Below, piece by piece: positions 1 to 12,940 of a stretch of DNA of 64,000 nt. Numbering within the stretch: position 1 is the first letter of the stretch; each line of letters opens with the position of its first letter. The notes beneath the pieces were generated by a model, which was not told where the DNA came from, ran no database searches, and saw only the letters and a program-made list of their open reading frames with translations. The stretch spans positions 62,001 to 126,000 of the forward strand of contig NZ_JAANOP010000006.1 in assembly GCF_011250515.1 (NCBI RefSeq), written 5' to 3'. A program made the position numbers and the translations under genes. The stretch comes from Aquirufa ecclesiirivi. Its GTDB lineage: Bacteria > Bacteroidota > Bacteroidia > Cytophagales > Spirosomataceae.

Positions 1-271
1 GAATAAATGAAATATAGTTATCTACGTTAATTAATAATGATTGAAAAATTTGTAAACTAATTAGTATCGCAATCCATGTAATAACAGAGTTGATATTCGT
101 CTGAGAGAGGTGGTTAAATTGATCAAATATATTTTTAGTTACAAATAAGAGTGCCGTTGGAATCAAAGCTAAAATCACAGCTATTAGAAGCTGGAATAGT
201 GTATTCTTCTTATTTAATCCAAATAAGAGTTTATAAATCAGTACGAAATCTCGAATGATGCTGAATTTCAA
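1..271 (-). CDS. ABC exporter, N-terminal fragment (runs off left edge)
   Basis: The minus strand is open from about 271 to the left edge, preceded in frame by a stop and lacking an ATG, so a TTG at 271 (reading as MKFSIIRDF) is the likely start. The visible ~90 residues hold a basic N-terminus, a hydrophobic segment ending in IPTALLFVTKNIFDQF and a second one around TWIAILISLQIFQSLLI. That is the TM1/TM2 layout of type I ABC exporters, where the first helix ends before an [IL][FI]D turn. No ATP-binding part is in view. It is transcribed away from the kinase-to-protease operon, as expected for the exporter of a lasso-type cluster. The family call rests on the hydrophobic pattern and context only; another polytopic membrane protein is possible. 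Confidence 0.6.
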   Translation of the reverse strand, partial: MKFSIIRDFVLIYKLLFGLNKKNTLFQLLIAVILALIPTALLFVTKNIFDQFNHLSQTNINSVITWIAILISLQIFQSLLINVDNYISFI

Positions 272-367
272 TGTTGAACGGATTTGTTTGTATTTACAAA
301 GCTATCCTATGTCGTTGATTTATCTCTAATCAGGATAGATATTCATTCATATATTTGATATTATCAT

Positions 368-375
368 TAGTTTTG
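368..375 (+). promoter_or_regulatory. Candidate -7 promoter box upstream of the RiPP operon
   Basis: The octamer TAGTTTTG fits the Bacteroidota -7 consensus TAnnTTTG and lies 23 bases before the kinase ATG at 398. No clear -33 TTG at the right spacing was found. It sits in the divergent gap between the ABC exporter and the kinase. Confidence 0.4.
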
Positions 376-397
376 TAAAATAAATTTAACCTATTCC

Positions 398-1315
398 ATG
401 TATAAATACGTTGCATTGGGAATGCAAATTCAATCTGAAATTGAAATTCCAGGCTTATTTCCTTTTGACTTCCAAGAAAGTGGGGGTACGGTCATGGTCA
501 AAATGGGTACTGTACCAGAGACACTTCAAAATGAAATATTAGAAGTAAAGCCTTTTTCTTTCTTCAACGAGCGTGAGTTTATATATCATATTCCAGATGC
601 AGCAAAATTTTATATTACGAATGGGGATAAAATACTAATAGAGCCATTAACGGATAATTTGGATGAAGTGTTTTTTTATCTATACACTGGTGTATTGGCT
701 ACTGTATTATTTCAAAAAAATATACTTCCTTTTCATGTTTCAGGTGTAGTTCTTAAAAACAACACAGTTTTGCTTTTTGCAGGACACCAGAGAGCAGGGA
801 AGTCTTCTACTTCTATCATGCTTCAAAATAGAGGATATTTGCCATTTACAGATGATACGGCTGTATTACAAGTTAAAAATGGACTTTGTTATGCAACTTC
901 CTCATACCCGATTATTCGGGCAATGGAACGAACTTTAGAGAAGCAATCGGTCTATTCAGATGACGAAATAACGCCGAAAATTAAAGAAGGCTTTAAGTTT
1001 GGAATAAATTTTCATAAAAAGTTTACTCCTGAGCAGTTACCCGTTAGTGGTATCGTTTTTTTAAGTGAAGATGGGGATGAGGTAGAGATTTCGCCAATGA
1101 AATCAACAGAAGCCATAAAATGGTTAAAGTTTAATATTTATAGAAAACAGTGGGTCAATGGAATGAAAAAAGAACTTCTTGAATTTCAGACGATTTCACA
1201 AATTGCTCAGAGTAAATTACATTTTTTTTCAGTTAAGCGCCCTTGGGAATCCGATAGTTTTGAGATTTTAGCGCAAGCCATAGAAGATCAAGTCATTCAT
1301 CAAATTGGAAAATAA
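398..1315 (+). CDS. HPr-kinase-like lasso peptide kinase
   Basis: A 305-residue protein related to HPr kinase/phosphorylase C-terminal domains. It has a Walker A P-loop GHQRAGKSS at residues 129-137 (Lys135), followed by FTDDTAVLQ, the acidic stretch typical of this fold. Stand-alone proteins of this kind next to PqqD, B2 and Asn-synthetase genes are known in paeninodin-type lasso clusters, where they phosphorylate the Ser at the precursor C-terminus. Here it is the first gene of a four-gene operon and overlaps the sulfotransferase gene by 11 bases. Only one precursor in this window ends in Ser and one in Thr (9837-9992 and the 7927-8085/8917-9045 pair), so its target may be an internal hydroxyl residue. 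The fold and context are well supported; the substrate is inferred. Confidence 0.82.
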   Translation: MYKYVALGMQIQSEIEIPGLFPFDFQESGGTVMVKMGTVPETLQNEILEVKPFSFFNEREFIYHIPDAAKFYITNGDKILIEPLTDNLDEVFFYLYTGVLATVLFQKNILPFHVSGVVLKNNTVLLFAGHQRAGKSSTSIMLQNRGYLPFTDDTAVLQVKNGLCYATSSYPIIRAMERTLEKQSVYSDDEITPKIKEGFKFGINFHKKFTPEQLPVSGIVFLSEDGDEVEISPMKSTEAIKWLKFNIYRKQWVNGMKKELLEFQTISQIAQSKLHFFSVKRPWESDSFEILAQAIEDQVIHQIGK

Positions 1316-2156
1316 AAAGAATATAGTTTGGCTTGCTTCTTATCCTAAATCTGGGAATACTTGGTTTAGGAGCTTTATTTCAGCTCTTAGAAATAAAGGT
1401 GAAGTTGATATCAATGCTATTTCTACTGAAGGGATATTTTCTCAAAAAAGAGGGTTAGAAGAATGTTTGGATTTGGATGCAGATGAAATACCTGTGTCTA
1501 AAATGGATCAATTTAAACGCATATCTTTTGAGCACCAATCAAATACTTCTGCCATGAAGTGTTTTGTGAAAATCCATGATTTGTATTCCATGTCAAAAAT
1601 TGACCATCAACCTATTGTACCACAAGAGTCAACATTGGCAGCTATCTACTTTGTGAGAAATCCGCTGGATGTAACTATTTCAATGGCAAATCATAATGGA
1701 CAAACATTGGATGAGGCCATTGCCAAAGTAGTGTGTAATGAACATGCACATTTGGTTCATTCAGAAAAACATGCGCAAGATCAGTTTCAGCAATATTTAG
1801 GCACATGGAATATGCATGTGGAAAGTTGGAAAAATGTCTCAGCTTTTCCCGTAATTTTTATTCGATATGAAGACATGAAAATGAATCCCCAAGACTCATT
1901 TTCACAAGTTTTGAAACAGATTGAATATGAGGCAACTGAAGAAGAAATACAATTAGCTTTAGAAGCTTCCCAATTTGAAAAATTGAAAAATCAAGAAGTT
2001 GAGTTTGGATTTAGAGAAAAACCAAAAGCCTGTAAGTCATTTTTTAATAAAGGAGAGGTTGGTCAATGGAAAGAGCATTTAAATCAAGTACAAATCAATA
2101 AAATAAGACAATTTAACGAACCCATGATGCGAGAATTCGGATATTGGGAAGAATAA
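1305..2156 (+). CDS. Sulfotransferase (PAPS-dependent)
   Basis: A 283-residue sulfotransferase of the Sulfotransfer_1 type. The 5'-phosphosulfate loop is YPKSGNTW at residues 13-20, the 3'-phosphate motif is RNPLDVTISMA near 118, and the C-terminal nucleotide loop is KGEVGQWKEHL near 248. These are the three signatures of PAPS-binding enzymes, so a complete active enzyme is likely. It overlaps the kinase before it and the PqqD-like gene after it, which ties it to the peptide operon. An APS kinase gene (11334) that would supply PAPS lies at the far end of the same locus. The substrate is inferred to be the precursor peptide or its product; nearly all precursors carry a fixed Tyr near the C-terminus that could accept sulfate. 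Confidence 0.88.
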   Translation: MENKKNIVWLASYPKSGNTWFRSFISALRNKGEVDINAISTEGIFSQKRGLEECLDLDADEIPVSKMDQFKRISFEHQSNTSAMKCFVKIHDLYSMSKIDHQPIVPQESTLAAIYFVRNPLDVTISMANHNGQTLDEAIAKVVCNEHAHLVHSEKHAQDQFQQYLGTWNMHVESWKNVSAFPVIFIRYEDMKMNPQDSFSQVLKQIEYEATEEEIQLALEASQFEKLKNQEVEFGFREKPKACKSFFNKGEVGQWKEHLNQVQINKIRQFNEPMMREFGYWEE

Positions 2157-2161
2157 TAAAA

Positions 2162-2443
2162 ATGGAAAATATGACATACGTTTTTAATGAAGAAAGAGTA
2201 TTATTAACCCAATTAGGAGAAGAAGGAGTTTTATATGATATTCAATCCAATGAATATTTTACGTTAAATGAAACCTTGTTTTATATCGTAGATGGGATTA
2301 AAAAAGGACTAACTTTGGTAGAAATTGGCGAAATATTAATGAGCAAATACGATATCGATGAGAATTTGTGTTATCAAGAAATAGCCAAAGCTATCCAACA
2401 ATTGGTAGAAAAAAATATCCTCTTAGAACAAAATAATGCTTAG
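2162..2443 (+). CDS. PqqD-like RiPP recognition element (lasso B1)
   Basis: About 93 residues with the PqqD/RRE pattern: an N-terminal strand region, then LGEEGVLYDIQSNEYFTLNET, and a helical C-terminal half ending in IQQLVEKNILL. PqqD-like B1 proteins bind the leader of lasso precursors and hand them to the B2 protease. An upstream ATG at 2144 would overlap the sulfotransferase by 13 bases; the ATG at 2162 (MENMTYVF) starts closer to the domain and is preferred. It overlaps the following B2 gene by 8 bases, matching the split B1/B2 arrangement. The expected ligand is the W-x-x-P-x-[IL] leader motif found in the small genes downstream. Confidence 0.88.
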   Translation: MENMTYVFNEERVLLTQLGEEGVLYDIQSNEYFTLNETLFYIVDGIKKGLTLVEIGEILMSKYDIDENLCYQEIAKAIQQLVEKNILLEQNNA

Positions 2444-2861
2444 GGTTCTTAGTCTTTTTTTTAAATTAAGTTTTCGTAACCAGAGTCTTATTTTGGGGAC
2501 CATCTTCCTATCTGTTTATTGTTACTTTTTATTTAAAATAAAGCCGACCTGGATTAGATTTGGCCGAATACACCAAGTTAAATTGGAATCGGAAAAAATT
2601 GATTGGGGACTAGTTAAGGATATTCGGGAGTCAATTCGGTTAGTAAGTAAAAGATTACCTCTTCATTTAGTTTGTCGCCATGAAGCTTACATGGCTAAAA
2701 TATGGTTGAATTATTATAAAATCCCCTACAAGATTTATATTGGATTCAAATATGGGGATGATAAAAGCATTATAGGACATGCTTGGACAGAGGTGCAAGG
2801 CAGACAAATTACGGGGTTTTGTGATCCCAAGGATTATGTGATTCAGGCTATATATACTTGA
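2436..2861 (+). CDS. Lasso B2 leader protease (transglutaminase-like)
   Basis: A 141-residue protein of the lasso B2 family, a transglutaminase-fold cysteine protease that removes the leader peptide. The likely nucleophile is Cys80 in LPLHLVCRHEAYMAK and the catalytic His is His115 in IIGHAWTEVQGR, with an Asp further on (CDPKDY). A hydrophobic segment near residues 14-34 may anchor it in the membrane, which is seen in many B2 proteins. It is the last gene of the kinase-sulfotransferase-B1-B2 operon and overlaps B1. Length and motif order fit the family well. Confidence 0.87.
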   Translation: MLRVLSLFFKLSFRNQSLILGTIFLSVYCYFLFKIKPTWIRFGRIHQVKLESEKIDWGLVKDIRESIRLVSKRLPLHLVCRHEAYMAKIWLNYYKIPYKIYIGFKYGDDKSIIGHAWTEVQGRQITGFCDPKDYVIQAIYT

Positions 2862-2912
2862 AATAGGAGTTTAGAGATTGAACATTGATTTCAATAATAA
2901 ATCAATGATTCA

Positions 2913-3065
2913 TTAGTAACCCAACATATGATCAGAATCAAGTAAGAATTTAAGTGGATTCAAATTGATTATTTCTTCGGTATTCCACTTTTCTAATTTA
3001 GGACTTTCCCATTTTTTGAGATCGGGAGAATTCGTGTCATCATTCAATAATACTTTCTTCTTCAT
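2913..3065 (-). CDS. Divergent RiPP precursor peptide (outlier)
   Basis: A 50-codon ORF on the strand opposite B2, converging with it. The leader has KKWESPKLEKW, the same W-x-S-P-x-[IL]-x-x-W frame as the main precursor family, followed by NTEEIIN. The core then differs completely: LNPLKFLLDSDHMLGY, with two Asp, no GADGG and Tyr as the last residue. It lies just downstream of the SET gene on the same strand. I read it as a separate product made by the same machinery; it was found by eye from the motif. Confidence 0.7.
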   Translation of the reverse strand: MKKKVLLNDDTNSPDLKKWESPKLEKWNTEEIINLNPLKFLLDSDHMLGY

Positions 3066-3132
3066 TTTTCAATTGTTAGAGCTACATGGGGAAATGAAAG
3101 AATAATTTATCTCACTTCTATATAATGTGTAT

Positions 3133-3597
3133 TTATTTGTATTTCAATGGACTTATTTTTTTCATTAGATTTCTGTAAAGCCAATAGTTTTCTCCATAAG
3201 AAACAAAAATTTCTTCATTAGCGGGGATATCATCTCTTGCAATAATGGTTATAGTTTCTAGGCGAAAATCAAGCTTTTGTATCGTGTTGGGTTTATTAGC
3301 ATGGTTGTACAATGAACCATTCCCCAATGCTAAATAAACTTTGTTACCATGTGTATTACATACTTCGCACGTGCAACTTTGATTAGCCCAAATGTAATCT
3401 AACATAGTAGGTTCCGATAAATAGAATGAGCGCCATTTTAAGGCCAATAGTCTGGCTTCTTCGATTAACTCCCCTTGTTTGATTAGGTCATTTGAAAAAA
3501 CACCAAATCCATGAATTGAAGATTGACTTAATCGAAGTTTAGGTGATATACCTGCTATATCATATTTAGGTTCAGAAATTTCACAAGGATTTAACAC
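3133..3597 (-). CDS. SET-domain protein (putative lysine methyltransferase)
   Basis: A 154-residue SET-domain protein. The opening IHGFGVFSNDLIKQGELIEE is the usual first SET motif, NHANKPNT at residues 98-105 matches the NHxxxPN cofactor/pseudoknot motif, and NEEIFVSYGENYW near 127-139 holds the catalytic Tyr. A Cys-rich insert (CTCEVC) lies near residue 75. SET proteins transfer methyl groups from S-adenosylmethionine to lysines. It sits 69 bases downstream of the cyclase on the same strand and is followed by the outlier precursor, so a tailoring role on the conserved Lys of the peptides (+18 from the second Trp) is a reasonable guess. A role outside the cluster cannot be excluded. Confidence 0.8.
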   Translation of the reverse strand: MLNPCEISEPKYDIAGISPKLRLSQSSIHGFGVFSNDLIKQGELIEEARLLALKWRSFYLSEPTMLDYIWANQSCTCEVCNTHGNKVYLALGNGSLYNHANKPNTIQKLDFRLETITIIARDDIPANEEIFVSYGENYWLYRNLMKKISPLKYK

Positions 3598-3666
3598 GGT
3601 TAATATTTTTTAATTGATTAATAAATATACAAAAAATGAACTTTCTTTATTCAATACAAAAATCAC

Positions 3667-5550
3667 CTAAACAAATTTGTTTGGGTGGGATTGGATAAAT
3701 AGCGCACAACTTATTGACCTTGTTAGATAAATGGAGTTATTGTATGCATTTTTGTTTCTAGGATCTTTAATGATGCTAGCAAGGCTATCTTTCATTTTTT
3801 GAATATCCAGATAATAGGTAATCGCCTTATTTTGATCGAAAGACTCTAATAATTGTTCAAACTCTTTTGCTTCATTAGCGATTCTAAGCGAAAGATCAGT
3901 AGCCTGTCTACCTTTCTTTTTTTGGTGAATTAAATCATCTAACAATCTACCTTTCATGGCTGTTTTTATTAACCACTTTGGTGTGTCATATCGGTAATAG
4001 TATTCGTTGGGAACAGATAGGCAAAATTCTACTAAATTTTTATCGGCACTCGGATCAAAGGTTTTGATATCAAAATAGTAGGAAAGGTCATGCCATACGG
4101 CTCCAATTTTACTGAATTGAGGATTAATAAATTGAATTTGTTTTTTTTCATTTGGAACTAATTGACGAAAATAGGGATCATGGCCAGATTCCAACATCCT
4201 TTTTTCTAAATCAATATCTTCAGCAAATTTGGAGTTTATGTGAGAATAAGAATCCCAAATTTTGGATTGATCAATACCTATGTATTTTTTAAATTTTTGG
4301 GACATGAGCCTAATGTAAGAGGATATTGTCAACTTTTCATTGCTATCAAAGCCAATAAGTTGTTTGATTTTTTCTTTGACGGAATTTTTTTCTGTATAAC
4401 CCGTCCAAGAAATAGTTGAGTTTCCAAATTGACCTATCAACATGGTGTCAATTCCCTCTTTTCCGGCATTTCGATAAATTTCATAGATCCAAAATAGATT
4501 TCCTGCTGCATGCAATGGGCTATGATGCAGATCAATCATCTCTTTGAGATTTTGAACAATGGAAACCTGCTCACTCCGAATTAATTGTAAATCTACATTA
4601 CCTAAAAATTGAGCAGTTGGTATGGTTAGGTATGATTCATTGGTGGCAGTTAGTGGAGTAAATAAATCAGAAGTATCCTCTTTTGGAATGGATGTAAATG
4701 CTGTTAAAGACTTTCCTTCTTTTTTTAAGATTTCAGATGCTACCGTGGTGATGGTACTGGAATCAAATCCTGAACTTAATTGGCTTCCGATTTTATTTGC
4801 TCCTTGTATTCTATTTCTTACCGACTGTTCCAATTTTGCATTAAAGCGAGCTACATATTCCATTTCAGTATTCAACTGTAGCACAGGAGTATTTTCAGCT
4901 ATCCAATATCGTTTGAGCTCAGTTTTGCCATTACTAATTTTTAAGTAATGCGCAGGAAGTAAAAAATGAATGTCTTCAAAGGCTGTTTCATCATTTAATC
5001 TATCCCAAACTGTCAAAATGCCAGCTAAATAGCTTTCATTAATTTGTAGATGGCTTTTGTCAAAATCAAGAAGTCCTTTAAGTAAAGAAGAGAAAGCTAA
5101 ATAATCATGTCCTTTTCTATAATAGATCGTACCAATTCCAAATGGATCTCTGGCAAGGAATAATTCTTTAGAATTACTATTCCAAATCACTAAAGTCCAT
5201 TCACCGTCAATTTTTTTTACAAAATCATCACCTAGCAATAAATATAATTTTAGGAGAAGTATGTTGTTCGGAATAGACTCATCTATTTTCATTGACAAAA
5301 GGGCAAATAAGTCCTTTCGGTTGTCAATTCGACCAGTGGAAATAAGCTGGCAGTTATTTTCTGAGTATAGTAATTCTTGAGCTTGAAATTCAGTATGGAG
5401 AGATCTGGTTTGTACACCAATGTGACAACCATGGCCTATTGAATCTGATTTTAGGCTAGGGGCAAATTCGCTTAAGGAATTTTGGATAATGGGAAATAGA
5501 TCAGAATTAGTATCTGGGTCAAATGATACTAAACCGTACAAAATATTCAT
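3667..5550 (-). CDS. Asparagine synthetase-like macrolactam cyclase (lasso C)
   Basis: A 627-residue asparagine synthetase homologue. The N-terminal half resembles class II glutamine amidotransferases, but residue 2 is Asn (MNILYGLVSF), so the nucleophilic Cys2 needed for glutaminase activity is missing, as in lasso cyclases. The C-terminal half carries the pyrophosphatase loop as SQLSSGFDSST (about residue 260), consistent with an enzyme that adenylates a side-chain carboxylate. Such enzymes close the ring between the core N-terminus and an Asp or Glu. It lies between the precursor array and the SET gene on the same strand. With B1, B2 and exporter in view, lasso-type cyclisation is the best reading, although the ring itself has not been shown. 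Confidence 0.87.
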   Translation of the reverse strand: MNILYGLVSFDPDTNSDLFPIIQNSLSEFAPSLKSDSIGHGCHIGVQTRSLHTEFQAQELLYSENNCQLISTGRIDNRKDLFALLSMKIDESIPNNILLLKLYLLLGDDFVKKIDGEWTLVIWNSNSKELFLARDPFGIGTIYYRKGHDYLAFSSLLKGLLDFDKSHLQINESYLAGILTVWDRLNDETAFEDIHFLLPAHYLKISNGKTELKRYWIAENTPVLQLNTEMEYVARFNAKLEQSVRNRIQGANKIGSQLSSGFDSSTITTVASEILKKEGKSLTAFTSIPKEDTSDLFTPLTATNESYLTIPTAQFLGNVDLQLIRSEQVSIVQNLKEMIDLHHSPLHAAGNLFWIYEIYRNAGKEGIDTMLIGQFGNSTISWTGYTEKNSVKEKIKQLIGFDSNEKLTISSYIRLMSQKFKKYIGIDQSKIWDSYSHINSKFAEDIDLEKRMLESGHDPYFRQLVPNEKKQIQFINPQFSKIGAVWHDLSYYFDIKTFDPSADKNLVEFCLSVPNEYYYRYDTPKWLIKTAMKGRLLDDLIHQKKKGRQATDLSLRIANEAKEFEQLLESFDQNKAITYYLDIQKMKDSLASIIKDPRNKNAYNNSIYLTRSISCALFIQSHPNKFV

Positions 5551-5764
5551 TGTGGAAATCGGTTATGGATAAAAAATATCATGTATGTGTTTGCATGATT
5601 CAATACTTGTATCTAGGCATATTTATAAACAATTTACAAGTATTTAATACTACTAAATTGTTGCTATTTAATATAATTGAGTACAGATTTGATGTTCTTA
5701 TGAATGAAACTAATACTATTTACCTCGATTCAAATGGAGCTAATGGGGGATAAAACTCCCTTTT

Positions 5765-5929
5765 TTATTGATTATATGTTTTTACGCCACCGTCTACACC
5801 AACACCATATTTTAATCCCAAATTGACATATTCCCAAATGATGATTTGAGGTTCTATCCAATTCTTTTTATCATAGGATAATGGAGAGTCTATTTTATTT
5901 GACTGTAGGGTAGCATGTACATTTTCCAT
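5765..5929 (-). CDS. RiPP precursor peptide 1
   Basis: 54 codons, the precursor nearest the cyclase. Leader motif KKNWIEPQIIIWE; core region LGLKYGVGVDGGVKTYNQ. Counting from the second Trp, Gly is at +10, Asp at +14 and Tyr at +20, as in the rest of the array, although the usual ENA before the core is replaced by GLK. The variant SP-to-EP in the leader recurs in the decayed copy at 6910. Confidence 0.8.
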   Translation of the reverse strand: MENVHATLQSNKIDSPLSYDKKNWIEPQIIIWEYVNLGLKYGVGVDGGVKTYNQ

Positions 5930-6203
5930 TTTGTATTAGATTTATTGGAATTTTGGTCAAACTTCTTTAAGCTATATTTCTAAATTTTGATTTTTTTTTT
6001 GCATGACTTAATTGTCATCTTCAAGACCTATTGGGTCAAATTCCATATTTATTAATTCCAAACACTGAAAATCAGTAAAAATCAAATTTCTTTATTGGTG
6101 GAAAGGAATAGACTTTATTTAAATTTTCAGAATAATGGTTGAGTTATTTTTTTTAATATTAGGTAGTTTGGAGGTGAAATTTTAGTATTTCCCAAGAATA
6201 GAA

Positions 6204-6377
6204 TTAACCATTATTTAGATATGATTGAGCTCCGGCATCTACAAATTTTCCAGCTGCATTTTCTATTTGATCGGTAAGCCAACTAACTAATTGAGGACTA
6301 ATCCAAATTTTTCGATTATCAGTTAAGTTTAAATGGTCTAAATAATTCACTCGGGATTCATTTAGCTTGTTTTTCAT
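6204..6377 (-). CDS. RiPP precursor peptide 2
   Basis: 57 codons from the ATG at 6377; two further ATGs (6380 and 6389) are possible but MKNKLNES aligns with the start of precursor 3. Leader motif RKIWISPQLVSW, then LTDQIENA and core AGKFVDAGAQSYLNNG. This is the most divergent core of the main family: Phe-Val before Asp(+14) and Ala after it, but Gly(+10), Asp(+14) and Tyr(+20) are kept. It ends with a longer tail. Confidence 0.82.
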   Translation of the reverse strand: MKNKLNESRVNYLDHLNLTDNRKIWISPQLVSWLTDQIENAAGKFVDAGAQSYLNNG

Positions 6378-6530
6378 CATGACTTTCATTGGTTTAGAAA
6401 TAAGTTATATAAAAACTATGAATTAATATCAGCAAATTATGATAAATAAGTCTGTCTTTTTACCCTTGCTTAGGAAAAACAACTATATCAAATGAGAAGT
6501 AAACCTCCTTGCTGTCTTAATAGTCTAATT

Positions 6531-6701
6531 TTAGACATCTCCATAAGTTTTAGCACCACCATCGGCTCCTACACCTTTAGCATTTTCTAATTGATCTGTA
6601 ATCCAATGAACCAGCTGAGGACTAATCCAAATTTTTCGATTTTCTGTTGAAATAAATGTATCTAAATTATTTGTTTGGGATTCATTGAAGTTGTTTTTCA
6701 T
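6531..6701 (-). CDS. RiPP precursor peptide 3
   Basis: 56 codons, closely related to precursor 2 through the leader (MKNNFNES start, RKIWISPQLVHW, then ITDQLEN) but with the common core type AKGVGADGGAKTYGDV. Asp is at +14 and Tyr at +20 from the second Trp. The close leader and differing core suggest the cores diversify faster than the leaders. Confidence 0.83.
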   Translation of the reverse strand: MKNNFNESQTNNLDTFISTENRKIWISPQLVHWITDQLENAKGVGADGGAKTYGDV

Positions 6702-6909
6702 GATTATATTCGATTTAGGAATTAGGCTTTTTGTAAATTTGATTTTAAATCATTTACATTTTTAATGTGTGTTAGTCTGTAGTTTTTTTAATTACAAATC
6801 TAATATTTAGTCAACTTAGGATTTTACTCCAACAATCTCCAAGTAATCCAAAGGAATTTTTTAAATGGCCTCTTTCTCATGTTTAGAGAAGGGGCTCTTT
6901 GCAATTCTT

Positions 6910-7020
6910 TTATGTAATATTATATGATTTCACGCCACCGTCTGCACCAGCACCAAATGTTAAGCCCAAATTGACATTTTCCCAAATGATGATTTGAGGT
7001 TCTATCTAATTCTTTCCCTT
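6910..7020 (-). pseudogene. Decayed RiPP precursor, leader Trp changed to stop
   Basis: The translation IEPQIIIWENVNLG followed by LTFGAGADGGVKSYNIT is clearly a relative of precursor 1. The codon for the first leader Trp is TAG, and upstream of it no start codon or recognisable leader remains. The core is still readable, so the loss is recent or only the 5' half was copied. Confidence 0.8.
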
Positions 7021-7077
7021 ACTAAATTAAGGTCTTACTATATTTCAAATTAGTTCTGAATAAGTTGGGGTAATATA

Positions 7078-7245
7078 TTAAACAACATATGCTTGTCCAG
7101 AACCATCTCCAGCTTTCCCTCCAAAAAGCTCGATGTTTTCAGTAGTCCATATTTGTATTTCTGGCTTTATCCAATCTTTTTTAACATCATAATATTCCAA
7201 GTTGTCAATTTTTTTTTGAGATAATTCGTTATAGTTGTCTTTCAT
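7078..7245 (-). CDS. RiPP precursor peptide 4
   Basis: 55 codons. Leader motif KKDWIKPEIQIW, then TTENIELF and core GGKAGDGSGQAYVV. Asp(+14) and Tyr(+20) are kept, but Ala-Asp-Gly-Gly becomes Gly-Asp-Gly-Ser and Lys(+18) becomes Gln. The N-terminal part (MKDNYNELSQKK) is of the same type as its neighbours. Confidence 0.82.
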   Translation of the reverse strand: MKDNYNELSQKKIDNLEYYDVKKDWIKPEIQIWTTENIELFGGKAGDGSGQAYVV

Positions 7246-7469
7246 AATGTAGTTAATGAATTAGTTAATTTGAATTTAAAATTATTGATTGAATACTTGA
7301 ATTAATTAATACCTTAAACTGATTGTTTTTTTTTTCTAAAATCCAATTATTTGCAAGTGAAATATATTGAATTATACATGTTTAATAGGGTATTCATTCT
7401 TTAAGGTGATTAAATAATTGATTGTTTCTTTCTTTTTTGAAATATTTGTTATTTACATCCATGCTTAAT

Positions 7470-7559
7470 TTAAATAAAGAGATAGTAACTCCTGCCATCT
7501 GAACTATACTCTCTTGCAAGTTCAATTTTATCAGCACTCCAATCAGGTATTTTAAGAGA
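7470..7559 (-). pseudogene. Remnant of a RiPP precursor
   Basis: An open stretch without start codon (stop directly upstream) reads SLKIPDWSADKIELAREYSS then DGRSYYLFI. It lines up with the family from S-P-E-I-x-x-W onward, keeping Ile(+5), Glu(+6) and Asp(+14), but the first Trp, the N-terminal half and the Gly residues are lost. Treated as a relic. Confidence 0.6.
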
Positions 7560-7692
7560 GACTTAATTTCTTTTTTCTAAAATCTTATTCGATTTCTATC
7601 TATTTATAATCAATACTTTAATTATATTGTTTACAAGTTCTACATCAGTTTGAAATCAACCTTATTTTACATTTATGAAATAAATTGGGAAT

Positions 7693-7845
7693 TTAGTTAT
7701 ATCCCTTAGATCCACCGTCGGCTCCTACACCTCCTAGAGCGTTTTTTATCATATCATTTTCCCAATTTGATATTTCTGGGGATACCCAATTCCTTTTTTC
7801 TGGAGTTTCATTTAATTTTTCTGTTTTTGATTTCTGTGTATCCAT
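7693..7845 (-). CDS. RiPP precursor peptide 5 (one-residue core insertion)
   Basis: 50 codons. Leader motif KRNWVSPEISNW, then ENDMIKN and core ALGGVGADGGSKGYN. The core has one more Gly than its relatives, so Asp is at +15 and Tyr at +21. If the Asp is the ring acceptor the ring here would be one residue larger. The promoter-proximal half is duplicated at 8744-8992. Confidence 0.83.
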   Translation of the reverse strand: MDTQKSKTEKLNETPEKRNWVSPEISNWENDMIKNALGGVGADGGSKGYN

Positions 7846-8002
7846 GATTCTGAATTTCTCTAAATATTATAATAATTTTATCACAGTTTGATAACCTTAT
7901 TTTATGTTTTGATTGATCTTTGGGATTTAGGTAGCATATGCCTTAGATCCACCATCTGCTCCTATACCTCCAGCATTTTCTAAGTTATCGTTTTCCCAAT
8001 TT
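7754..8002. repeat. 249-bp segmental duplication, copy 1
   Basis: This stretch, running from the leader of precursor 5 through its 5' flank into the core of precursor 6, recurs at 8744-8992 with the same length and only scattered differences. It shows how the array grew: the unit copied runs from leader to core of adjacent genes, not from start to stop of one gene. Confidence 0.85.
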
Positions 8003-8085
8003 TTAATTTCTGGTGAAATCCAAGCTCTTTTTTGCATTGGCTCATTTGTTTTTTCTACTGTTGAATCATACTTGCTCTTTTTCAT
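7927..8085 (-). CDS. RiPP precursor peptide 6
   Basis: 52 codons. Leader motif KRAWISPEIKNW, then ENDNLEN and core AGGIGADGGSKAYAT, the consensus core of the array. Asp(+14) and Tyr(+20) are kept and the last residue is Thr, a possible phosphorylation site for the kinase at 398. The same core is encoded again at 8917. Confidence 0.85.
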   Translation of the reverse strand: MKKSKYDSTVEKTNEPMQKRAWISPEIKNWENDNLENAGGIGADGGSKAYAT

Positions 8086-8184
8086 GAAGTAAGATTATTA
8101 TTTGAAATTATATTTTCAGAAATTTTTGGTTTATTTTTTTTAAAAGAAATAGTCAAATACTTTTTCAGGTTTCTAGTTTGACTA

Positions 8185-8340
8185 TTATGCATAACTAGCG
8201 TGCAAACCTCCATCTACACCTTTACCCCCAGCGAGTTCTATATTAACAGATTCCCAAGCTTTTAGATTAGGACTTATCCAATTTTTTTTAACAGTTTCAT
8301 TTGTATTTTCTAAAGGAATTTTTTGATCGTTCTTATTCAT
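8185..8340 (-). CDS. RiPP precursor peptide 7
   Basis: 51 codons. Leader motif KKNWISPNLKAW, then ESVNIEL and core AGGKGVDGGLHASYA. Asp is at +14, but a residue is gained after it so Tyr is at +21, and Lys(+18) is His. It ends in Tyr-Ala. Confidence 0.82.
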   Translation of the reverse strand: MNKNDQKIPLENTNETVKKNWISPNLKAWESVNIELAGGKGVDGGLHASYA

Positions 8341-8477
8341 GATTTTATTTTTAATAGGGGAGAATGATTATAGAAAATGTAATTTTCTAGTATTTGTAGC
8401 TTGATGTGATTTTAATAGATGATATTTCAAATTTAATATACTTTTCAATTAACTGTTATTTATAGGAAGAAAAGACA

Positions 8478-8592
8478 TGCACTAACACCCCCAGCGAGTT
8501 CTATATTGTCAGATTCTCAATGAACCATTAATAGAACTTACCCAATTTCTTTTTTCAGAGTGTTTGTTAGAAGTATCTTCACCATGGCTTGT
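8478..8592 (-). pseudogene. Decayed RiPP precursor with frameshifts
   Basis: Reading one frame gives SEKRNWVSSINGSLRI then stop; shifting frame gives SDNIELAGGV, after which the GADGG and Tyr part is missing. The leader therefore lines up with one frame and the pre-core with another. No in-frame ATG for the leader is visible. Confidence 0.7.
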
Positions 8593-8712
8593 AGATCCCA
8601 ATGTTTTATTTTTGAAGTGTTTTTAATGATTGAGGAACGATGCTTTTAAACGAAAAGTAATAGTAGTTAGTAATGAAATTCCTATTCAGAATTCTTTTTA
8701 TGACTTTTAGCT

Positions 8713-8835
8713 TTAAATAATTTTCTCCAAATAAATATTGTTTTCATTTTCCCAATTTGATATTTCTGGGGATACCCAATTCCTTTTTTCTGGAGTTTCA
8801 ATCAATTTTTCTGTTTTTGATTTCTATTTATTCAA
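8713..8835 (-). pseudogene. Decayed RiPP precursor, start and core lost
   Basis: The start codon position reads TTG, codon 4 is TAG where relatives have CAG, and after an intact leader (KRNWVSPEISNW, ENEN) the frame runs into NIYLEKII and stop with no core. It is the damaged end of the second duplication copy. Confidence 0.8.
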
Positions 8836-8992
8836 AACCCTGAATTTTTACCAATAGTATAATACTTTTATCACAGTTTGATAACCTTATTTTATGTTTT
8901 GATTGATCTTTGGGATTTAGGTAGCATATGCCTTAGATCCACCATCTGCTCCTATACCTCCAGCATTTTCTAAGTTATCGTTTTCCCAATTT
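8744..8992. repeat. 249-bp segmental duplication, copy 2
   Basis: Second copy of 7754-8002. It joins the decayed leader at 8713 to the core of the precursor at 8917. Small changes near the former start codon (loss of ATG, a new stop) lie inside this copy. Confidence 0.85.
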
Positions 8993-9045
8993 CTTTTTTC
9001 TGGAGTTTCATTCAATTTTTCTGTTTCTGATTTTTGTGTATTCAT
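8917..9045 (-). CDS. RiPP precursor peptide 8, natural in-frame leader deletion
   Basis: 42 codons. The N-terminus MNTQKSETEKLNETPEKRNW runs straight into ENDNLENAGGIGADGGSKA then YAT. Compared with its relatives, the nine residues from the first Trp codon to just before the second (W-V-S-P-E-I-x-N) are missing cleanly in frame, as if the two Trp codons recombined. The core equals that of precursor 6. Without the W-x-S-P-x-I motif it may not be recognised by the PqqD-like protein, so it could be expressed but unprocessed. Confidence 0.75.
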   Translation of the reverse strand: MNTQKSETEKLNETPEKRNWENDNLENAGGIGADGGSKAYAT

Positions 9046-9129
9046 AACCCTGAATTTTTCTAAATTTTGCACTACTTATATGATTGTTTGAACTCAACCT
9101 TATTTTATGTTTTGATTGATCTTTGGGAT

Positions 9130-9282
9130 TTAAGCAACATATGCCTTAGTACCTCCATCTGCTCCTATACCTCCAGCAAATTCTATGTTATCATTTTCCC
9201 AATTTGATATTTCCGGTGAAACCCAATTTCTTTTTTCTGGAGATTCATTTATTTTTTCTGTTTTTGATTTCTGTGTATCCAT
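9130..9282 (-). CDS. RiPP precursor peptide 9
   Basis: 50 codons. Leader motif KRNWVSPEISNW, then ENDNIEF and core AGGIGADGGTKAYVA. All core markers are at the usual positions; residue +7 is Phe in place of Asn. Start MDTQKSKTEK is shared with precursor 5. Confidence 0.85.
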   Translation of the reverse strand: MDTQKSKTEKINESPEKRNWVSPEISNWENDNIEFAGGIGADGGTKAYVA

Positions 9283-9361
9283 GATTCTGTTTTTTCAAAT
9301 TTTGCAAGACTTTTTTGACAGATTGATAACCTTTTTTACGTTTTTGAATGATATTGGGAAT

Positions 9362-9514
9362 TTAATCACCATATGCCTTAGTACCCCCATCAGCTCCCAC
9401 ACCTATTGCATTTTCTAAGTTTTCATTTTCCCAGTTTATAATTTCTGGAGAAACCCAATTCTTTTTAACTAAATTATCATTTAACTTTTCTGATTTCATC
9501 TCCTGAGGATTCAT
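9362..9514 (-). CDS. RiPP precursor peptide 10
   Basis: 50 codons. Leader motif KKNWVSPEIINW, then ENENLEN and core AIGVGADGGTKAYGD. Asp(+14) and Tyr(+20) kept; the C-terminus is Asp. The start MNPQEMKSEK groups it with precursor 11. Confidence 0.85.
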   Translation of the reverse strand: MNPQEMKSEKLNDNLVKKNWVSPEIINWENENLENAIGVGADGGTKAYGD

Positions 9515-9598
9515 GGCTATAATTTTTATATAGATTTAATTGTTGAATAAATATTTGAATCCAACATGATCTTACATTTTTTGAAAGATGTATTGAAA

Positions 9599-9751
9599 TT
9601 AACCAACATATGCCTTGCTTCCACCATCGGCTCCTAGTCCACCTCCATTTTCTATGTTATTATTTTCCCAGTTTGTAATTTCTGGAGAAACCCAATTCTT
9701 TTTATCTAAATTATTATATAATTTTTCTGATTTCAACTCTTGTGTATTCAT
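9599..9751 (-). CDS. RiPP precursor peptide 11
   Basis: 50 codons. Leader motif KKNWVSPEITNW, then ENNNIEN and core GGGLGADGGSKAYVG. Three Gly at +8 to +10 precede Leu-Gly-Ala-Asp. If the core began at +8, its first residue would be Gly, as in many lasso peptides, and the Asp would be residue 7. Confidence 0.85.
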   Translation of the reverse strand: MNTQELKSEKLYNNLDKKNWVSPEITNWENNNIENGGGLGADGGSKAYVG

Positions 9752-9836
9752 ACCATTTTTTTATTTATATGTGTAAATCGTTGAATAAAAATTTGAATCC
9801 TACATGTTCTTACATTTTTTGAAGGATGTTTTGAAA

Positions 9837-9992
9837 TTAACTCACATATGCCTTGCTTCCACCATCAGCTCCCAAGCCAACAGAATTTTCTATGTTTTCA
9901 TTTTCCCAAAATGCTATTTTGGGTGAAACCCAATTCTTTTTTTCATGTGTCACATTTGAATTACCTAAGTTGTCATTTTGAGTATCTTTCAT
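9837..9992 (-). CDS. RiPP precursor peptide 12
   Basis: 51 codons from the ATG at 9992 (MKDTQNDN); an upstream in-frame ATG at 10061 adds a hydrophobic stretch absent from relatives and is not favoured. Leader motif KKNWVSPKIAFW, then ENENIEN and core SVGLGADGGSKAYVS. It is the only precursor ending in Ser, the residue phosphorylated in paeninodin-type systems. Its 5' flank carries a cysC relic, mirroring the arrangement of precursor 14 and cysC. Confidence 0.85.
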   Translation of the reverse strand: MKDTQNDNLGNSNVTHEKKNWVSPKIAFWENENIENSVGLGADGGSKAYVS

Positions 9993-10065
9993 GGAATTAA
10001 AGAGATTTAAAGGATAGATATGTATGATTAACGTCAGGAATTTACTAAAATAATTGGTCATTGTT

Positions 10066-10140
10066 AACCTGATTGAAAATTAAATTAGATGATTCTACAA
10101 TGGATAAATATGAGGTATTAATGGTCACTTCGACTAATTT
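10066..10140 (-). pseudogene. Relic of the 3' end of cysC
   Basis: The bases upstream of precursor 12 match the region 11329-11410 (cysC C-terminus, starting with the shared aacctgattgaaaatta on the plus strand) with many substitutions. So the unit precursor plus adjacent cysC end was duplicated. No reading frame survives. Confidence 0.65.
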
Positions 10141-10427
10141 ACAATGAATAGTTATCCCTTGTAAATTACTATATAGTAGATTTTTCACTGTTTGTTGTAA
10201 ACTATTTGAATGATTTTTTCGCTGTCCTTCTTTTGATTTTACTATTTATAAAATACAATTTTTTGGAAATATGTATAAGTGATTTATTAAGTAAAATATG
10301 ATGACAATATTGACACTTTAATTGCTCCTCTATTACAAATATTTAACCCTCTTAAAAATTATCAACCAACGAAAAGCTTACATTTCTTGATAATCTCTTT
10401 ACTAAGGGTATGAGTGATAAATTATAT
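10141..10427. other. AT-rich gap in the precursor array
   Basis: No precursor motif, gene or clear promoter was recognised here. It separates the 3' cysC relic from precursor 13. Confidence 0.5.
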
Positions 10428-10604
10428 TTATAAATAAGTCTGTGCTCCTCCATCAGCGCCCGCACCTCCAGTATTTTCTATGTTTTCATTTTCCCAATTA
10501 ACTATTTCTGGTGAAATCCAAGTTCTTTTTTCACTGAAATTCGCAATAGAATCTACAACAAGAGAAGGAGATTCCGTCAGTCTGTTTTTGGGAGTATTAG
10601 TCAT
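10428..10604 (-). CDS. RiPP precursor peptide 13
   Basis: 58 codons, the longest leader of the set (MTNTPKNRLTESPSLVV...). Motif KRTWISPEIVNW, then ENENIEN and core TGGAGADGGAQTYL. Asp(+14) and Tyr(+20) kept; Lys(+18) is Gln and Leu follows the Tyr as last residue. It is flanked on both sides by cysC relics, as if inserted in an old cysC copy. Confidence 0.85.
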   Translation of the reverse strand: MTNTPKNRLTESPSLVVDSIANFSEKRTWISPEIVNWENENIENTGGAGADGGAQTYL

Positions 10605-10684
10605 GATTTAGAATTTTATAGGTTGTACTAATTATCCTGAAATTAATAAAATGCATGTATTTTCCAAATTTCCCAATCGACTCT

Positions 10685-10925
10685 TTTACCGAATCTAATC
10701 TTCTATCAATGACAAAATGAGTATGTTGGGGTCATCAAAATGGGAATCGATCCCCTTGAAATTTTTAATTTGTTTTTCTTTTACTTGTTGATACAAACCC
10801 AAATGAACTCTTTCTATACAAACTTTAATTGGGGTCAATAAAGACTTACATTTGATGGTCTTTAAAAATTTGGCGAGAAATTTGCCTCATGGCTTACATT
10901 GGTGTAATCATAGCTACAATATTTC
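10685..10925 (-). pseudogene. Decayed cysC copy (APS kinase relic)
   Basis: This stretch matches the middle of the intact cysC (about 11385-11625) over its length, for example the shared plus-strand run ttcttttacttgttgata, but it has indels and stops in every frame. It belongs with the 3' relic at 10066; precursor 13 lies between the two parts. Confidence 0.8.
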
Positions 10926-11115
10926 AATGTCAAATAATGGTAGTTCATTCTATTTGACTTTATGTATCATAAGTAGTTGTAATATACTTCTTTCTATTTT
11001 CAAAATTCCCTTATTTATTGTTTACTAAGCTCCTATTTAAATATAGCTAAGGCTATTTGGGTATTAGTTCAAAAGGTCAATAATAAGTAGTTAACAGTTA
11101 AACTGTAGGGTATAT

Positions 11116-11271
11116 TTATGCATTATAAGTTTTGGCTACACCATCTGGACCTGCTCCTGGTCCGTTTTCTATAAGGGTAGCATTCCAACTTTCTAATTCC
11201 GGTGAAACCCAATTCTTTTTTTCTTGTGTCAACTTTGAATTAACTAAGGTGACATTTTGAGATTCTTTCAT
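11116..11271 (-). CDS. RiPP precursor peptide 14
   Basis: 51 codons, 62 bases downstream of cysC on the same strand and so probably on one transcript with it. Leader motif KKNWVSPELESW, then NATLIEN and core GPGAGPDGVAKTYNA. Pro at +9 and +13 sets this core apart, while Gly(+10), Asp(+14) and Tyr(+20) remain. Confidence 0.84.
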   Translation of the reverse strand: MKESQNVTLVNSKLTQEKKNWVSPELESWNATLIENGPGAGPDGVAKTYNA

Positions 11272-11333
11272 AGTATTTTAAAAGGTCTAATGGATCGATA
11301 TGTAAAATTAACATTAAAAAGTTACTAAAATTA

Positions 11334-11906
11334 TCAGTTTTCAATAACCTGATTGAAAATTAATTTAGCGGATTCTTCAATAGAAAAATAGGCTGTTTCA
11401 ATACTTAAATGAGCATGCTGGGGTATTTCAAAAGGGGAATCTATCCCGGTGAAATTCTTAATTTGCTTTTCTTTTACTTGTTGATATAAGCCCTTAGGAT
11501 CTCTTTCCATACAAACTTCAATGGGGGTGTCTATAAAGACTTCCACGTATTGATTTTGTAATATCTGGCGCGAGTTTTTTCTCATTTCTTCCATAGGAGT
11601 AATCATCGCCACAATGACACAATAGCCCTCTTCCAGGAATAATTTGGCAATTTCAGCTGCCCGTCGGATATTTTCAAAACGATCCGCTTCCGTAAAACCC
11701 AAATTGGAATTAATTCCTTTTCTTAAGATGTCACCATCTAAAACAAGGCATTTTAGGCCTTTGGAAATGAACAATTCCTTTAGTTCTAAGGAAATGCTAC
11801 TTTTCCCAGCACCCGACAATCCTAGTAGCCAAATACATTTATTCATACGTTTTTCAATACTCCTGAATCTTTGTTTAGGTGAAATAAAGCAAATTAAATT
11901 ATTCAT
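11334..11906 (-). CDS. cysC: Adenylylsulfate kinase
   Basis: An APS kinase that makes PAPS, the sulfate donor of sulfotransferases. It shows the P-loop GLSGAGKSS, the motif LDGDILRKGIN, LGFTEADRFENIRR and a lid-like MITPMEEMRKNSR. The ATG at 11846 (MNKCIWLLGLSGAGKSS) gives a normal-length enzyme; the ATG at 11906 adds 20 residues of no recognised function. No ATP sulfurylase genes are adjacent, so this lone copy at the end of the precursor array seems dedicated to the sulfotransferase at 1305. Two decayed copies of the gene lie inside the array. Confidence 0.9.
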   Translation of the reverse strand: MNNLICFISPKQRFRSIEKRMNKCIWLLGLSGAGKSSISLELKELFISKGLKCLVLDGDILRKGINSNLGFTEADRFENIRRAAEIAKLFLEEGYCVIVAMITPMEEMRKNSRQILQNQYVEVFIDTPIEVCMERDPKGLYQQVKEKQIKNFTGIDSPFEIPQHAHLSIETAYFSIEESAKLIFNQVIEN

Positions 11907-12076
11907 GCATCATTCAATATAGGGTTTTAGGGTATTTTTTTTTCGTATTTTCATTTTGCCAAATAGTAGTAGGTCAAATGCTTGAACGAATTAGCTAACG
12001 CTATTGGATATACTATTTCGTTTAGTCTACATTTGAGTTTTATTTGCTGACTTTTATTTTATTAATTTCCCATTCC

Positions 12077-12940
12077 ATGGTACAATACAACACAAAAGAC
12101 TGGATCATTTTTATATTCAGATTTCATAAATCTGATACCTTCAGGCAGCTATTGCCTTTGATGATTTTTATTGGAATCTATTGTGCCATCATTCGATTTT
12201 TGGAAATCGAGTATTGGAAACTAGGTGAGGAAAGCTTGGTGAGGAATGTTTCGCTGATGCACGGGATGTTGGGTTTCGTTATTTCCTTGTTATTGGCCTA
12301 TCGAACCAATACTGCTTACGATCGCTGGTGGGAGGGAAGGAAATTGTGGGGGGCATTGGTCAATAACTCAAGAAATTTGGCTATGAAATTGTCCGTCATG
12401 TTGGAGCATGAGTCCGACAAGCATTTTTTTCAGAAAGTGATTCCTGCCTATGCTTCCATTCTGTCCAAGCATTTGAGCAATGAAGAATCTGCGCTTGTAT
12501 TGTTTGAAGGTCTGGATTTACATATTGATCATCAAAAACATAAGCCTAATCAAGTCGCTAAAATGTTGTTTAGCAAAGTGAATGATTTATACCAAAGTAA
12601 AAAACTGACCGGCGATCAACTGATCGTGATAAATAGTGAATTACAGTCTTTTACAGATATTTGTGGTGCTTGCGAACGAATCAAAAACACCCCAATTCCT
12701 TATTCCTATAGTGCCTTTATCAAGAAGTTTATTTTCTTCTACATCATGACGCTACCCTTCGGTTATGTATTTAGCTTGGGCTATTTAGCTATTCCTGTTG
12801 TGGTATTTACATTTTATGTCTTAGCCAGTTTAGAGTTGATTGCGGAAGAAATTGAAGATCCGTTTGGACTTGATGCCAATGATTTACCCACAGCTAAAAT
12901 GGCAGCGAATATCAAAAAACAAGTGGAAGATTTAATGTAA
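12077..12940 (+). CDS. Bestrophin-family channel protein
   Basis: About 287 residues of the bestrophin/YneE family, membrane ion channels. Typical features are the opening DWIIFIFRFHKSDTFRQL, two N-terminal membrane segments, the conserved RTNTAYDRWWEGRKLWG and a C-terminal IEDPFGLDANDLP close to the family's acidic EDPFG motif. The ATG at 12077 (MVQYNTKDW) is preferred over 12044, which adds a short hydrophobic extension. It is transcribed alone, divergent from cysC; the peptide locus ends here. Confidence 0.88.
   Translation: MVQYNTKDWIIFIFRFHKSDTFRQLLPLMIFIGIYCAIIRFLEIEYWKLGEESLVRNVSLMHGMLGFVISLLLAYRTNTAYDRWWEGRKLWGALVNNSRNLAMKLSVMLEHESDKHFFQKVIPAYASILSKHLSNEESALVLFEGLDLHIDHQKHKPNQVAKMLFSKVNDLYQSKKLTGDQLIVINSELQSFTDICGACERIKNTPIPYSYSAFIKKFIFFYIMTLPFGYVFSLGYLAIPVVVFTFYVLASLELIAEEIEDPFGLDANDLPTAKMAANIKKQVEDLM

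Follow-up and report, generated by a model that had tools for sequence, protein, structure and literature searches.

A biosynthetic gene cluster for lasso-type ribosomally synthesized and post-translationally modified peptides (RiPPs) lies at the start of a 64,000-nucleotide stretch of the Aquirufa ecclesiirivi genome (3.1 Mb, 99.66% complete), namely positions 62001-126000 of a 190,949-base contig; we call this whole stretch the window, and unless another locus is named our coordinates refer to it. Aquirufa is a genus of Bacteroidota with a freshwater habitat. Judged by its genes, the cluster is real and unusual, with both enzymes and an array of precursor genes directly visible. Its plus strand carries genes for a kinase, a sulfotransferase, the leader-binding protein B1 and the leader peptidase B2, and its minus strand those for a SET protein, a cyclase, an adenosine 5'-phosphosulfate (APS) kinase and the precursors. 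The genes for an ATP-binding cassette (ABC) transporter and an NTP_transf_5 nucleotidyltransferase continue past the window edge, so that the cluster reaches about 2.7 kb before position 1.

The core enzymes were recovered much as an earlier note, made from the letters of the sequence, had described them. The PqqD-like B1 (2144..2443, plus strand) scored 43.4 bits against PF05402 (cut-off 23.4) and 39.1 of 80 bits on the lasso model NF033536; B2 (2436..2861, plus strand), with its Cys80 and His115, passed the curated cut-off of NF033537 (38.9 bits against 33). The asparagine-synthetase-like putative macrolactam cyclase, C (3667..5550, minus strand), is above cut-off for PF00733 and GATase_7; its N-terminus is MNIL, hence there is no Cys2, and an SSGFDSS motif stands at residue 259. 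The genome gave a single match each for cyclase and B2. Contigs searched with the single cyclase sequence yielded no matches; a three-sequence cyclase alignment yielded two Aquirufa loci (in A. nivalisilvae and A. beregesia) and two distant loci. What the earlier note called an exporter fragment is indeed an exporter, D, though not a fragment: the 90 codons in the window (2..271, minus strand) are the N-terminal part of an intact 587-amino-acid ABC transporter cut by the window edge (full gene at 10508-12271 of locus L002), after which comes the nucleotidyltransferase of 398 amino acids (L002 9315-10511).

The kinase, sulfotransferase, APS kinase and SET protein named in the same note are likewise all present, the kinase being matched weakly by models. 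This HPr-kinase-like protein (398..1315, plus strand; TIGR04352, 0.0011) has a conserved His-Lys-Asp-Asp set (His113, Lys135, Asp152 and Asp153, invariant in seven of seven aligned homologues from cyclase-bearing loci), the motif given for lasso kinases in the accessible part of one report (PMC9266682). The sulfotransferase (1305..2156, plus strand; PF00685, 2e–29), of the type that uses 3'-phosphoadenosine 5'-phosphosulfate (PAPS), has a gene overlapping that of the kinase and resembles cytosolic phenol and aryl sulfotransferases, with a weaker likeness to bacterial Teg12 and StaL. The APS kinase (11334..11906, minus strand; TIGR00455, above cut-off) is the only intact copy detected in the genome. 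The predicted SET-domain methyltransferase (3133..3597, minus strand; PF00856, 1.2e–11, 45.3 bits, cut-off 22.4), a member of a lasso-linked group discussed below, has as its nearest solved structure by sequence that of vSET (1n3j, 1.1e–11). Its N98, H99, N104 and Y134, which form the NH...N and Tyr motifs and whose role we take to be catalytic, are invariant in five of five aligned proteins.

A search for the pattern W..P.[ILVM]..W matched 16 of the 556 small open reading frames (ORFs) of the window, against a mean of 0.115 after shuffling residues within each ORF. One match (34427-34660) lies outside the array and another (8713-8805) is a broken copy, leaving 14 intact precursors of 50–61 codons with W-x-x-P-x-[IL]-x-x-W leaders, all on the minus strand. 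Thirteen belong to type 1 (5765..5929, 6204..6389, 6531..6701, 7078..7245, 7693..7845, 7927..8085, 8185..8340, 9130..9282, 9362..9514, 9599..9751, 9837..9992, 10428..10604 and 11116..11271), that at 7693..7845 having its core Asp shifted one residue onward; the remaining one (2913..3065) is of a second type with an LNPLKFLL core, with relatives in L032, L067 and L068. The family with this leader had been described in the earlier note as fifteen precursors of 42–58 codons: the family stands, its longest member in fact has 61 codons, and the fifteenth (8917..9045, minus strand, 42 codons) has lost the motif, so that the count becomes 14 plus one. That gene is an open frame missing eight leader residues, the P-x-I part of the motif among them, and its core is identical to that of 7927-8085. 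Four further minus-strand remnants lie among the intact genes, one with an in-frame stop (6919..7014), one with several (7488..7595), one with a broken frame (8478..8568) and one that has lost its core and has a damaged start and leader (8740..8823). Two pieces of APS kinase also occur there on the minus strand (10065..10110, 87% DNA identity over 46 bases; 10678..10920, with stops, 78% over 209 bases), and APS kinase and precursor were thus probably duplicated as one unit, in an array that shows both birth and death. DNA identity by segment (upstream, N-terminal leader, leader, core and downstream) averaged 0.62–0.65 over 78 pairs; there being no general contrast of leader and core, we make no claim of accelerated core evolution. 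A Bacteroidota-type promoter pattern upstream of the precursors was rejected, occurring in 3 of 15 upstream stretches against 101 of 300 random ones.

Orthologous loci were found in A. nivalisilvae 59G-WUEMPEL (L033, L049) and A. beregesia 50C-KIRBA (L032, L048). They share the gene order APS kinase, precursors, cyclase, SET, B2, B1, sulfotransferase, kinase and ABC transporter, and on their flanks they also agree in a bestrophin-like gene and in the one that follows it (by eye, AraC-like). The nucleotidyltransferase was not found at either, although L048 and L049 extend 3 to 5 kb past the ABC gene; it may thus lie outside the core gene set, its membership being unsure. Among 38 Aquirufa genomes, the SET protein occurred solely in the three that hold these loci and the window, and B2 in the same three. 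The A. nivalisilvae locus has 14 precursors and that of A. beregesia 11. In an alignment of 37 precursors from the three species, made without two found later (L033 9955-10113 and L032 15958-16077), only the W, P, W and D were invariant and all 37 cores differed; in the fuller set, no core was common to any two species. Both sister genomes hold a second lasso locus (L036 in A. nivalisilvae, L037 in A. beregesia) with three and eight precursors, respectively, most of them ending in Ser.

Precursors were not found spread widely apart from B1, B2 and cyclase genes, a distribution that the earlier note had named as telling against it: the main type was confined to the three array loci among 222 family genomes, apart from one weak match in each of four further genomes (E 0.0003 to 0.009). 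Two genomes did carry the second type where no lasso enzyme was detected in the vicinity. These genes, with LNPLxFL cores, lie at L067 7071-7223 and 7380-7595 and, in A. beregesia, at L068 7269-7433 and 7545-7793. The two loci are the same genomic site in two Aquirufa genomes, and in the 15 kb examined no lasso enzyme was matched; their precursors may be substrates acted on from afar.

To place the array size, we surveyed B2-bearing loci of the order, B2 being present in 61 of 390 genomes (three matches below cut-off were left out). The survey took in 61 such loci outside Aquirufa (60 plus L034), clustering small ORFs by similarity without reference to any motif, a procedure that cannot detect a lone precursor. 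By this count there were families of 17 members in the window, 14 in L033, 11 in L032, eight in L037 and three in L036; as only 14 precursors of the window are intact, its surplus must be broken copies or fragments. Outside Aquirufa there was no family in 55 of the 61 loci, two members in four (two of these pairs, in L122 and L126, being unlike precursors), three in one and six in one. This procedure replaced a motif-based count, which gave zero in 38 of 60 loci and missed at least the precursors of L125 (seen in L035) and L127. In L113 (9934-10466), a lasso locus in another genus of the family, three tandem precursors have a common N-L-L-D-P-H stretch. The six-member locus, L129, belongs to another family of the order and has kinase, sulfotransferase, B1, B2, cyclase, ABC transporter and SET protein, so that SET with sulfotransferase accompanies an array in two lineages; L127 has a SET protein without sulfotransferase, and one visible precursor. 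Set against its orthologues and the 61 loci, the cluster bears out the earlier suggestion of one enzyme set beside an odd number of precursors and an odd set of tailoring genes. Its unusual parts are the SET protein and the array size.

The SET profile was built from the five lasso-linked members, whose scores are therefore high by construction. It matched 8 of the 390 genomes, five strongly (>227 bits) and three weakly (<60 bits), the strong matches lying without exception in lasso loci; the informative part is that no equally strong member occurs elsewhere in those genomes. In a sample of the phylum 100 of 395 genomes matched, only two above 71 bits, those of the window and of G123 (which holds L127). 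Twenty weaker SET matches, hand-picked from 101 and mostly those without in-frame stops, were examined with about 8 kb each side, and none of B1, B2, kinase, cyclase and sulfotransferase was matched there; in one of these neighbourhoods (L139) an ABC transporter was weakly matched. The five lasso-linked SET proteins formed one side of a branch with moderate support (85/87) when 25 SET proteins were placed in a tree. Many weak SET matches (family f37) show one in-frame stop, which may be the alignment overrunning the gene end. Adjoining the SET gene of L127, 6818-7621 encodes what looks to us like a PhyH-type dioxygenase, a possible further tailoring enzyme.

The one sulfotransferase and the one intact APS kinase detected in the genome both lie in the cluster. 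The sulfotransferase occurred in 5 of the 38 Aquirufa genomes, each time with APS kinase on the same contig, and two further genomes had short, weak APS-kinase matches only. Such one-contig pairs were noted at G018:C44, G021:C17, G025:C11 and G030:C57 (all Aquirufa). The genome of the window also has two adjacent PAPS-reductase-family genes, presumably CysH and CysD, and from these gene counts we infer that PAPS would be produced mainly to serve the peptide pathway. Loci of three genera, represented by Aquirufa, by L034 and L123, and by L129, have sulfotransferase and kinase genes that touch or overlap.

To place the cleavage site, residues were numbered from the leader Trp, itself taken as 0. 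Ile, Leu or Met stands at position 13 in 32 of 34 type-1 sequences (types were split by pattern, two A. beregesia rows with FS ends being classed as type 1), and Ile or Leu in all 13 of the window. Ile at –2 is proven for BsfA in the available text of its report (PMC10368454); by this likeness the core would start at residue 15, which is Asn in 9 of the 13, and the accessible part of the metanodin report likewise gives Asn1 (PMC12670498). An Asp is invariant in the 13 type-1 cores, as their eighth or ninth residue when the count begins at residue 15 and their seventh or eighth when it begins at residue 16; a start at 15 would give a ring of eight in 12 of them and of nine in one. As to residues that might be modified, Ser or Thr is retained in all 14 window cores. 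Lys was found from position 15 onward in 38 of 46 precursors of SET loci (window 13/14, L033 13/14, L032 8/11, L129 3/6, L127 1/1), and from position 18 in 13 of 14 in the window against 5 of 33 in SET-less loci. The cleanest contrast is that within one genome, between the SET locus and the second lasso locus: for A. nivalisilvae 13 of 14 precursors have Lys against none of three, for A. beregesia 8 of 11 against one of eight. A comparison with four hand-picked SET-less loci (Lys in 2 of 14) was dropped, since all 20 such loci with recognised precursors give 17 of 33. Tyr occurs in all 14 window precursors and in 7/14, 6/11, 6/6, 0/2 and 0/1 of those at the other sulfotransferase loci.

Taken together, these observations make it probable that a single set of enzymes turns the precursors into a library of lasso-type peptides with tailored residues. 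B1 would bind the W-x-x-P-x-[IL] leader of each of the 14 precursors, and B2 would remove it, most likely one residue past the conserved Ile or Leu. The cyclase would then form a macrolactam by linking the freed N-terminus with the invariant Asp of the core, cyclisation of the precursors being likely, and the ABC protein would export the products, whose threading and biological activity are presumed. Kinase, sulfotransferase (with PAPS supplied through the dedicated APS kinase) and SET enzyme would act on side chains, at a guess Ser/Thr, Tyr and Lys, respectively. Tandem duplication would enlarge the array and mutation erode it, and by such duplication and decay the product set turns over between species; the array, its orthologues, its decayed copies and the co-occurrence of its tailoring genes can be read directly from the DNA. 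A bolder version is possible, though we hold it doubtful: a natural combinatorial lasso system with more than 10 products per strain, each bearing methyl-lysine from the lasso-specific SET group and sulfate from a private PAPS supply, the modified residues plugging otherwise plug-poor tails.

A number of observations weigh against the library of tailored lassos or bear on the residues that would be modified. Its cyclase reaches only 226 of the 525 bits of its best lasso model, NF033535 (7.6e–67), and five of the 14 window precursors, compared with the paeninodin precursor model NF033524, did not match it. Thr is absent from –2, where Ile or Leu stands if the core starts at 15; given BsfA, Thr(–2) is not universal among lasso precursors. 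A start at 15 would give a ring of 10 for three cores of the sister species (two from A. nivalisilvae, one from A. beregesia), and a start at 16 rings of seven to nine throughout. Only 1 of 14 window precursors ends in Ser, the site of paeninodin-type kinases (3/3 and 6/8 at the second loci), so phosphorylation would need another site, such as the internal Ser3 that BsfK phosphorylates in the available text (PMC10368454). The Lys contrast between SET loci and all 20 SET-less loci is modest, Tyr is found in 6 of 31 precursors without sulfotransferase (30 from 18 loci plus the one of L127), and L034 and L123 have a sulfotransferase and no Tyr in their three precursors, weakening Tyr as a general sulfation site; in all these residue counts paralogous precursors are not independent. 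Lys as the SET target is thus a reasonable guess with modest support, and Tyr as the sulfotransferase target is plausible in the window cluster and not in general. Many tails (e.g., GGSKTSAT) have no bulky plug, so an unthreaded macrolactam is conceivable. The products would then be branched cyclic peptides closed at the same Asp by a lasso-derived cyclase, which would suit the Gly-rich ring part, the many tails offering just Lys or small residues as plugs, and the distance of the cyclase from the curated model. We think this unlikely, because lasso loci have this same complement of B1, B2, C, D and kinase, and because the second locus in the same genus, whose precursors are paeninodin-like (one reached 25 of 27 bits on NF033524), has a similarly low-scoring cyclase (276 of 525 bits on NF033535); moreover, sulfate, phosphate or methyl-lysine could itself serve as a plug.

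Two other explanations would spare the lasso and give up part of the rest. The SET protein, sulfotransferase and APS kinase could simply lie next to the other genes and leave the peptides untouched, as might be thought from the commonness of SET-domain proteins in the phylum (98 of the 100 matching genomes doing so weakly) and from the modest Lys contrast. This appears rather unlikely when each of the five strong SET matches found in the order belongs to a lasso locus, with two bacterial families represented, as against none of the 20 weaker ones examined, and when the sulfotransferase and kinase genes touch or overlap in three genera. Alternatively, there may be no library, just one or a few precursors in use and the rest decaying duplicates, for which the leader-deleted copy, the four wrecked precursors and the two wrecked APS kinases amid the intact genes could speak. 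Yet the 14 intact frames keep their invariant anchor residues and the sister species keep 14 and 11 precursors, so we count this explanation improbable.

Lasso peptides are knotted and stable, and useful as antibiotics and scaffolds. A 14-member array whose cores are wholly unlike those of its sister species suggests that nature tries out variants on a single set of enzymes, a possibly substrate-tolerant set of B1, B2 and cyclase, and, if SET protein and sulfotransferase do act as proposed, their reactions may be kinds of tailoring new to lasso peptides. Literature searches, with most subscription papers outside their coverage, found no paper combining Aquirufa and lasso, just a review of entangled proteins for lasso peptide with SET domain, and no evident report of a sulfated lasso peptide. 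In lasso clusters the pair of kinase and nucleotidyltransferase is nothing unusual, and a sulfotransferase gene has an earlier mention too, in the accessible part of one report (PMC8498205).

The paeninodin and pseudomycoidin clusters (A, K, B1, B2, C, D, N), as given in the available parts of two reports (PMC9266682, PMC8498205), share with the window the split B1/B2, the asparagine-synthetase-like cyclase, the ABC exporter, the HPr-kinase-like kinase with His-Lys-Asp-Asp and the nucleotidyltransferase. The window cluster differs in its 14 precursors, its leader W for Y, its Ile or Leu where Thr(–2) is expected and its rarity of C-terminal Ser, and adds the sulfotransferase, APS kinase and SET protein; its nucleotidyltransferase is the part that the sister loci appear to lack. 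The BsfA cluster of Bradymonas sediminis has in common Ile at –2 and a B1/B2/C/D/K/N set, with a kinase acting on an internal Ser, and differs in its YxxPxL leader; its report, in the part available, names one precursor gene and mentions no SET or sulfotransferase gene (PMC10368454). Metanodin has Asn as the first ring residue, as we propose for 9 of 13 main-type window cores, and differs in its Thr(–2) and Gammaproteobacterial origin (PMC12670498, accessible part). Small SET lysine methyltransferases, vSET of virus PBCV-1 among them, are relatives of another kind: vSET acts on Lys27 of histone H3, whereas the SET protein of the window is proposed to act on a RiPP. For a single enzyme facing many genome-encoded substrates there are the prochlorosins, for which ProcM has about 30 precursors according to the accessible text (PMC11667668); those products are lanthipeptides, made by a different chemistry.

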